Made by a program: the position numbers and the translations under genes
The notes under the pieces: generated by a model
Databases searched by the model: none
What the model was told of the DNA's origin: nothing
What the model saw: the letters and a program-made list of their open reading frames with translations, nothing else
Origin: Candidatus Peribacteraceae bacterium
Lineage (GTDB): Bacteria; Patescibacteriota; Gracilibacteria; Peribacterales; Peribacteraceae
Assembly (NCBI GenBank): GCA_028703445.1
Contig: JAQVMW010000001.1
Location: 1 to 64,000 of the forward strand
Direction: 5' to 3'
Length of the DNA: 64,000 bases
In this document: positions 9,613 through 12,269 of the stretch, piece by piece
Numbering within the stretch: the stretch's first letter is position 1
Layout of the letters: each line of letters opens with the position of its first letter

Positions 9613-10224
9613 CTATCCCAGAATTACCTTCGAAACTTCCAGAACAGTGTCCTCAAGCTTGCCATCGCGGTTCACGATCTGCGCCGTGCACAGGGAGGCA
9701 TCTTTCAGCTCCCGGTCCATACTGGCAATGCGACGGGTGAGTTCCTCCTCCGCAATCGGAGAACGCTTGCGGATGCGCTCGATGAGCTGCTCACGGCTCT
9801 CAGGAAGGATGAAAACGGATCGGAGAGGAAAACGCGGGTGCACGCCTGAAAAGAGAGTGTGCCTTCGAATGGAATGGAATCCTTCGATGTCCACCTCGCG
9901 CACAACTGTCCTGCCATCTTCAATCGCCGGAATGATTTCATCAACGAGTGTCCCATAGCGCGCGCCGTCGTGCACCACTGCCCACTCCAGAACCTTTTTA
10001 CCCCTCACGAGGGAATCGAACTCCGCATCAGAGACAAAACAATAGAGATCATTTCCTTCGCCGGGCCGCCGCTCGCGTGTGGTAGCGCTACGCGGGAAGA
10101 CGAACTCCGGATGACGTGACTTAAGCTTTCTCAGCACCACACTCTTACCGACCCCGCTCGGCCCGATAATGAGGACCAGCATGCCCTGAGAGGATGTGCC
10201 TGCAGTGCGGCCGGAAGAAGCCAT
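9613..10224 (-). CDS. gmk: Guanylate kinase
   Basis: Phosphorylates GMP/dGMP with ATP. P-loop GPSGVGKS, GMP-binding block SATTRERRPGEGND followed by YCFVSDAEF, the WAVVHDGARYGT segment, the lid arginines and the C-terminal helix all fit. An upstream ATG at 10266 exists, but the ATG at 10224 is preferred: it has TAGGAT 11 nt upstream and gives the usual length of about 203 aa. It is divergent from the structured-RNA promoter; the two -10/-35 sets lie within 50 bp. Confidence 0.93.
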   Translation of the reverse strand: MASSGRTAGTSSQGMLVLIIGPSGVGKSVVLRKLKSRHPEFVFPRSATTRERRPGEGNDLYCFVSDAEFDSLVRGKKVLEWAVVHDGARYGTLVDEIIPAIEDGRTVVREVDIEGFHSIRRHTLFSGVHPRFPLRSVFILPESREQLIERIRKRSPIAEEELTRRIASMDRELKDASLCTAQIVNRDGKLEDTVLEVSKVILG

Positions 10225-10254
10225 CGTATGTACGCATCCTACCGTACCGTACGG

Positions 10255-10283
10255 TTGTCTGACCATGCAAAGAATGCTATACT
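10255..10283 (+). promoter_or_regulatory. Promoter of the structured RNA, TTGTCT-17-TATACT
   Basis: -35 at 10255-10260 and -10 at 10278-10283, with predicted start near 10290. No start codon follows at the leaderless distance, unlike protein genes in this window. Confidence 0.65.
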
Positions 10284-10289
10284 AACCTG

Positions 10290-10945
10290 ATTTGTTCTTT
10301 GACACTCCCGCTGTCCCAAAGCAGGGAGAAGTGAGAAGTGACACCGCGATTACACGGCTGCGGAGGCGCACCATCTATCTGAGCGCAAGCGAATGGTACA
10401 TGGCTCCGCTCCCGTCGTCCGTGTCTCTCGCGTTCCTCCTGAAGATCTTCTTCAGGCCCCGCACCTTTCCGTGCAAGCACGGAAAGGTGCGGGGTCAGTC
10501 ACTTCTCTCTCCTCCCTGCCTTCTTCTCTGCCCCGCACCTTTGCTCTGCAAAGGTGCGGGGCAGAACACGGCTGACCACCGTGCCACGCTGGAGCTTTAC
10601 GCTCCGGCACACACAAACAATTCCTGCTCCCGGGATAACGGGAGGCCGACCCGCCTCGGCGAAGTCCCGCACCCGCGGGACGAAGACGGGTGCCCGAGCA
10701 CTCGGGCCTGTCCCGCACCGAGCGTTCAACGCTCTGGTGCCGGGGCTCACACCAACACAAACAGTGGTGCGCGCCCACTCAAGCGCGTCTAAGGACAGGG
10801 AGCCAGAACCGGTCACTCTGGGATTGATCTCTCGCACACCACAATCGTGCGTGAGGTCACCGGGACACGTCGCACATGTGCGACGTGTCGGGGCACTCGC
10901 CTCTTGGGTTCGCAGCGGAACTTAAGACGCGGGTGCCCCATTTTT
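10290..10945 (+). ncRNA. Candidate large structured RNA (about 650 nt), family not recognised
   Basis: No plausible protein in any frame, its own promoter and a terminator. Long-range helices seen: 10333-10342 with 10498-10507 (10 bp). Inside it are nested pairs 10345-10349/10428-10432, 10352-10357/10419-10424, 10360-10365/10404-10409 and 10370-10374/10393-10397. Local hairpins: 10438-10456; 10457-10494 (18 bp); 10527-10565 (17 bp, sharing the CCCCGCACCTTT arm with the previous one, so swapped pairing is possible); 10591-10605 inside 10581-10610; 10627-10643; 10664-10681; 10692-10707; 10715-10740; and 10864-10889 (13-bp palindrome). Hallmarks of tmRNA, RNase P and SRP RNA were looked for and not found. 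Confidence 0.7.
10889..10945 (+). terminator. Rho-independent terminator of the structured RNA
   Basis: GGGGCACTCGC pairs with GCGGGTGCCCC, followed by ATTTTT. The stop codon of the convergent gene (10944) lies directly beyond the T-tract, so the hairpin may serve both transcripts. Confidence 0.75.
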
Positions 10946-12172: not shown

Positions 12173-12201
12173 TTCGACTCGTCGCTACGCTCCTCGCTCA
12201 T

Positions 12202-12234
12202 GGCAAGCCACCCTGAGCCGGGACGGGGCTTGCC
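12202..12234 (+). terminator. Hairpin after tRNA-Arg
   Basis: GGCAAGCC...GGCTTGCC stem without a strong T-tract. It may be a processing or pausing structure between the two tRNAs. Confidence 0.4.
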
Positions 12235-12269
12235 CCCGCACCGATACGAGCGAAGCGAGCATCTGGTGC

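Follow-up and report, generated by a model that had tools for sequence, protein, structure and literature searches.

The RNA gene, its flanking signals and its parts

The window analysed here is a 64,000-nt stretch of Candidatus Peribacteraceae bacterium DNA (contig JAQVMW010000001.1, positions 1 to 64,000). Positions 10284 to 10945 of its plus strand are predicted to form an untranslated RNA gene of ~650 nt, of which the genome (G000) has one full-length copy. On the left lies a divergently oriented gmk-like gene (9613 to 10266, minus strand); the genes on the right also read leftwards, from 10944, and the next gene 3' of the RNA in the window is convergent with it. The gmk product scored below the curated cut-off of the guanylate kinase model TIGR03263 (130 versus 160 bits) and resembles a divergent, class-specific form.

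An earlier note on this DNA had described the locus as a 650-nt, highly structured RNA flanked by a promoter and a terminator of its own and comparable in size to large ornate bacterial RNAs. This description is supported by homologues that show extensive compensatory change, by the lack of an Rfam match, and by the location of RNase P RNA and tmRNA elsewhere in the genome. The proposed promoter, TTGTCT-17-TATACT, is present at 10255 to 10283 of the plus strand and consists of the -35 element TTGTCT (10255 to 10260), a 17-nt spacer, and an extended -10 (TGCTATACT), TG standing upstream of TATACT (10278 to 10283). Taken alone, this pattern is near chance (two found versus 1.3 expected), yet TGNTANNNT is kept at the equivalent promoter position in relatives. 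The T-tailed terminator (10890 to 10945, plus strand) comprises a terminal hairpin at 10890 to 10939 (GGGGCACUCGC..GCGGGUGCCCC) followed by ATTTTT, AUUUUU in the RNA. A simple terminator scanner did not list this hairpin because its loop is too long; the hairpin and the U-run are kept across 12 aligned sequences.

The plus strand folds with a minimum free energy of -374.7 kcal/mol, whereas 20 dinucleotide-shuffled versions give -251.5 +/- 6.6 kcal/mol (z -18.7, a value inflated by perfect repeat hairpins), and five relatives fold at z -5 to -13 versus shuffles. Helix P1, formed by CUCCC-GCU-GUCC at 10305 to 10316 and GGACAGGGAG at 10793 to 10802 (class-wide form ..GGUAGGGAG..), is predicted to close the molecule. 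Within it, the P2 helix pairs the near-invariant GCAGGGAGAAGUGAGAAGUGAC (10321 to 10342) with GUCACUUCUCUCUCCUCCCUGC (10498 to 10519), and its strands covary. The 10-bp long-range helix reported earlier (10333 to 10342 with 10498 to 10507) belongs to this longer helix and shows almost no variation among 26 relatives. P2 encloses the P3 arm (10344 to 10431), whose nested stems (10352 to 10357 with 10419 to 10424, and 10361 to 10367 with 10408 to 10414) correspond to covariation helices 2 to 4 and which carries a genome-specific insertion. P2 also encloses the P4 hairpin (10438 to 10456; 74.7% of cells paired, with double changes in five of seven pairs) and the GC-rich P5 hairpin (10457 to 10495), which contains the first copy of CCCCGCACCTTT and varies in length among relatives.

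Downstream of P2, a repeat-type hairpin of 18 bp with the second copy of CCCCGCACCTTT (10526 to 10566), missing from most relatives, is followed by the hairpin CACGG-CUGACCA-CCGUG (10567 to 10583), the loop of which (UGACC, 10573 to 10577) is predicted to pair with GGUCA at 10811 to 10815 in a distal loop pairing, PK2. An unpaired A/C-rich linker, ACACACAAACA (10609 to 10619), keeps its position in relatives, and the alignment of relatives also supports the hairpin CUCCC..GGGAG (10627 to 10644) and a second A/C-rich linker, CACACCAACACAAACA (10748 to 10763). Between these last two lie the hairpin UGCCCGAGCACUCGGGC (10691 to 10707), kept in most Peribacteraceae, and an additional inserted hairpin of this genome (10716 to 10739). 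The H-type pseudoknot PK1 (10763 to 10788) combines AGUGG/CCACU (10763 to 10767 with 10775 to 10779) and GCGCGC/GCGCGU (10769 to 10774 with 10783 to 10788). Two 3' hairpins, at 10826 to 10858 and 10864 to 10889, precede the terminator; the latter is a palindrome. Two of the stems counted by hand in the earlier note, of 18 bp (10526 to 10566) and 17 bp (10457 to 10495), are exact, while the third, of 13 bp, is best matched by this palindrome of 11 bp.

In searches with Rfam 15 at gathering scores, three tRNAs were the only matches in the whole window, and none, including OLE, GOLLD, and ROOL, fell at the RNA locus. Relaxed thresholds added only hairpin-type matches far under the cut-off, and the regions upstream of gmk at 16 distant loci gave tRNAs only. 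The result that the earlier note had named as removing novelty, a significant Rfam match, was not obtained. A literature search, with subscription papers and bioRxiv outside its scope, returned no prior description of the RNA.

Relatives and maintenance of base pairs

A DNA search of 97 relatives gave long matches within the genus and short ones within the family, the P2 strands being best kept, and twelve full-length sequences, including that of the window, were extracted and aligned. With R1, a covariance model built on the P2 domain, 27 family members are found among 353 class genomes (E values, 1e-34 to 1e-13), and strong matches to it were seen only in Peribacteraceae. The gmk gene is adjoining and divergent in all 26 Peribacteraceae loci in which the flank is present. 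In a closed genome of the same genus (G004), neither gmk nor the RNA was found at the thresholds used, which suggests that the RNA can be lost together with its neighbour and counts against its universal essentiality.

The earlier note had named homologues with compensatory changes as the check on a structured RNA; such relatives were found, and their changes exceed those in shuffle controls. In a MAFFT alignment of 26 Peribacteraceae sequences, fitted without use of the structure, 91.5% of the P2-domain cells are paired (44% to 51% in slid controls), 24 of 43 pairs show double changes, and the covariation score is 0.334, versus 0.163 in shuffles, with none of 500 shuffles as high. For the P2 helix itself, the corresponding figures are 98.3% of cells paired and double changes in eight of 20 pairs. 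P1 was assessed by swapping strands among 21 relatives: the leader strand pairs with the 3' strand of the same RNA at -13.8 kcal/mol and with foreign ones at -11.8 kcal/mol (permutation p = 0.0002).

The two pseudoknots were compared across the class. An automated, anchored search for PK1 in the 45 nt preceding the anchor of each of 68 class segments gave a mean of 23.8, versus 11.2 in shuffles (Wilcoxon p = 1.5e-11); the arms read and picked by hand for a PK1 swap test include 36 different stem-2 sequences among 40 members. For PK2, an automated swap test of the loop of the post-P2 hairpin against the stretch following the P1 3' strand gave 14.0 for own and 11.5 for foreign partners in 47 class members, a value reached in none of 10,000 permutations. 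Its pair variants include CGACUA/UAGUCG, CGAUUA/UAAUCG, CGGCAA/UUGCCG, GCGGCUA/UAGCCGC, and UGACC/GGUCA. The permutation tests take genomes as independent, and their significance is therefore somewhat overstated; the variety of pair types is unaffected. Comparison among relatives shows that the predicted P1, P2 domain, PK1, and PK2 are maintained through compensatory change, and the locus is almost certainly a real, conserved gene for a structured noncoding RNA.

Outside Peribacteraceae, ~43 of 70 class loci, counted by hand from motif and model matches, show an RNA at the gmk-divergent place. Its parts follow the same order: the promoter precedes a BoxA-like site and a long hairpin, after which come A/C-rich linkers, an H-type pseudoknot, a covarying distal loop pairing, and often a conserved 3' domain. 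In Peregrinibacteria and Gracilibacteria, the sequence upstream of gmk has TGNTATAAT as promoter and then a BoxA-like site; the long hairpin has a 3' strand reading ..CCCUACUUUUCGAUGG, the linkers are of the type (CAAAAA)n, and the pseudoknot is followed by ..AAGAACGGUAGGGAG.. and by a 3' domain centred on CACCUCUG..CAYGUGNAA. In 25 members, 94.4% of the 3'-domain cells are paired and all nine outer-helix pairs show double changes; a model-fitted alignment gave 96.3% paired cells, and across the 3'-domain tests 12 of 16 pairs have double changes.

R2, a covariance model built on the 3' domain and searched against 380 genomes of the phylum with strict filters that may drop weak matches, recovered class members and one marginal match outside the class (G616; E value, 0.008), and did not recover the Peribacteraceae form. 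No single model matches both groups, so their union in one family is indirect and rests on synteny, promoter, BoxA, part order, PK1, and PK2; taken together, these suggest that the Peribacteraceae RNA and the other class types very probably share a common origin.

Two further features were observed in the class-wide RNAs. An internal loop of the 3' domain, in which CACCUCU faces CAYGUGNAA and is invariant among 25 members (alignment A4, columns 31 to 40 and 66 to 76), is likely a binding site for a protein or ligand. In six loci (L096, L153, L182, L200, L208, and L212), a CU-rich strand, CCCUAC or CUCUAC, has two potential partners containing GUAG, the 5' AAGUAG(GG) strand and the 3' GUAGGGAG/GUAGAGAG strand, and this alternative pairing could possibly act as a conformational switch or competition.

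Transcription control and proposed role

A BoxA-like element, TGTTCTTTGACA, lies just past the start of the RNA (10293 to 10304, plus strand) and matches at 12 of 12 positions the consensus TGYTCTTTRAMA, which is taken from the rrn BoxA sequences of Escherichia coli and Bacillus subtilis. A match of at least 10 of 12 within 60 nt of the -10 is reached by 53% of 60 class loci, versus 2.7% of shuffles, and its median distance past the -10 is 9 nt. In this genome, TTTTCTTTGAAC also occurs in the 16S leader, 40 nt ahead of the 16S gene. By its sequence and its position shortly after a promoter, the element marks the RNA as a candidate BoxA-controlled transcript. The rRNA leader with its NusB-S10 system offers a parallel, a BoxA close to where a long untranslated transcript begins; the present case differs in having no rRNA downstream and in the location of BoxA inside the first ~20 nt, and its control by BoxA is predicted from a sequence match. 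BoxA recruits NusB/NusE and shields untranslated transcripts from Rho (PMC4807359). It is fairly likely that this RNA is subject to rRNA-like, BoxA-driven antitermination, in which the 5'-end BoxA would recruit antitermination of the NusB/S10 type and allow the long transcript to avoid premature termination. BoxA is in addition a first handle on the expression of the RNA.

On the best reading of these data, the locus represents a new family of large, ornate RNAs linked to gmk, which matches no known family and is probably the core of a ribonucleoprotein. The simplest product of 10284 to 10945 would be a large untranslated RNA working in trans, and not a leader or an antisense transcript, given its own promoter and terminator, the convergent downstream gene, and the long-range pairings. 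P1 would close this RNA around the near-invariant P2 domain with its nested arms and around two A/C-rich linkers, with PK1 beside the P1 3' strand and PK2 joining a hairpin loop to a strand outside P1. The folded RNA may be stable and abundant in growing cells and could provide a ribonucleoprotein with its scaffold, or possibly its active core, the linkers acting as flexible joints or docking sites. We hold this explanation as a whole, comprising a trans-acting untranslated RNA with flanking signals, a kept fold, BoxA control, and a ribonucleoprotein role, to be likely. A scaffold or core tied to growth is favoured by the resemblance of the control signal to that of rRNA and by the fixed association with a gene of nucleotide metabolism, and a growth- or translation-linked role is tentatively proposed. 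Rather unlikely is the more far-reaching idea of a class-defining RNA machine of Gracilibacteria, Peregrinibacteria, and Peribacteria, a pseudoknotted ribonucleoprotein core under rRNA-type control with a function that has no known bacterial counterpart; such a function could be catalytic, ribosome associated, or a replacement for part of a lost system, e.g., co-translational targeting in a class apparently without a signal recognition particle.

To our knowledge, very few large ornate RNAs have been described in bacteria, and for none is the function settled. The present RNA is several hundred nucleotides long and multidomain, with pseudoknots and covariation, and by these sequence features it would belong to that descriptive group, alongside OLE, GOLLD, and ROOL by description and with none of them by homology. 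The comparison with these RNAs in the earlier note is thus apt for size and complexity and fails for homology. The OLE (Ornate Large Extremophilic) RNA is likewise about 600 nt long, ornate, chromosomal, and taxon restricted, and its mechanism is open (PMC9723947, PMC12286853); its model does not match here, it differs in phylum, neighbour, and architecture, and no protein partner is known for the RNA of this locus. The present RNA is chromosomal with one constant neighbour gene, lies outside Rfam, and is apparently kept through a deep class of the candidate phyla with reduced genomes; its survival amid such extensive loss points to an important role.

ROOL and GOLLD are encoded by phages and prophages, close to tRNA islands, and these RNAs share with ours a large size (ROOL env-120 is 659 nt), several pseudoknots, and variable linkers between conserved domains (PMC12286853). 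An RNA-only assembly of this kind, an oligomer held by loop-loop contacts that encloses or displays the linkers, is conceivable here also, and PK2 could equally form between molecules. The partner of PK2 is, however, present in the same molecule, and neither the Rfam result nor the setting, with fixed gmk synteny across the class in place of a phage-type context and with a 5' BoxA, resembles ROOL or GOLLD; we consider such an assembly unlikely. Still less probable is a cis-acting element or divergent regulator that controls gmk. The constancy of gmk as neighbour (in every family locus with the flank present, and in the corresponding position across the wider class) would fit such a regulator, as would the minus strand of the RNA region, which also folds better than shuffles (z -8.7). 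However, the RNA runs away from gmk, from its own promoter to its own terminator, the covariation across the pseudoknots belongs to the whole plus-strand product, and the convergent orientation of the next downstream gene in the window argues against a leader.

Known housekeeping RNAs, coding potential and genomic repeats

The trans-acting RNA proposed above resembles tmRNA and RNase P RNA as a large, pseudoknotted RNA of housekeeping type, and its size range, single copy, and housekeeping-like promoter with BoxA would suit a divergent form of RNase P RNA, tmRNA, signal recognition particle (SRP) RNA, or 6S RNA. The earlier note had seen no hallmarks of tmRNA, RNase P RNA, or SRP RNA, and in agreement with this no model for them matched at the locus; RNase P RNA (C2:122413-122872) and tmRNA (C11:95733-96146) are both located elsewhere in the genome, and the 6S model (RF00013), searched at the locus only, gave no match there. 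Two Rfam models and a core pattern gave nothing convincing for SRP RNA in 11 relatives, the RF01854 negative being weak since its control missed Bacillus subtilis. The Ffh M domain (PF02978) was found in none of 11 class genomes (G000 to G006 and G058 to G061) and in all 14 control genomes. The class appears to be without a signal recognition particle, rather than to encode its RNA at this locus, and apparently offers no SRP protein as a partner for such an RNA. A replacement for SRP RNA, raised by the silent SRP models, was dropped on the same Ffh result. A housekeeping identity is thus strongly disfavoured and very improbable.

The open frame at 10292 to 10792 (166 amino acids) has next to no chance of being a protein-coding gene, as the ORFs inside the RNA lack Pfam matches, the longest one changes frame and length across relatives, and base-paired covariation dominates. 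Equally remote is a region of unselected palindromic, REP-like hairpins in intergenic DNA: at least two hairpins of the RNA are genomic repeats (CCCCGCACCTTT and CACGTCGCACATGTGCGACG), but the conserved core lies outside them, with many invariant positions and covariation, and the REP-like reading is valid for the inserted hairpins only.

The CCCCGCACCTTT arm noted earlier as common to the hairpins at 10457 to 10495 and 10526 to 10566 is real, and both hairpins are instances of a repeat found elsewhere in the genome, even within the RNase P RNA gene. The exchange of partners between them was dropped as a conserved feature, the second copy being absent from most relatives. As a palindromic hairpin, CCCCGCACCTTTGC..GCAAAGGTGCGGGG, this repeat occurs at the two window positions and at C2:122675-122706, C11:224310-224342, and C10:2527-2556 of G000, and at least two structured RNAs, the present one and RNase P RNA, have acquired it in their peripheral arms. 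The second palindromic repeat, CACGTCGCACATGTGCGACG, is found at 10864 to 10889 in the window and also at C12:11066-11099 and C8:55602-55635. Elsewhere in the window, the spacer between tRNA-Arg and tRNA-Ala (12179 to 12265) is rich in repeats of the CGAGCGAAGCGAG type and in GGTGCGGGG/CCCCGCACC repeats.
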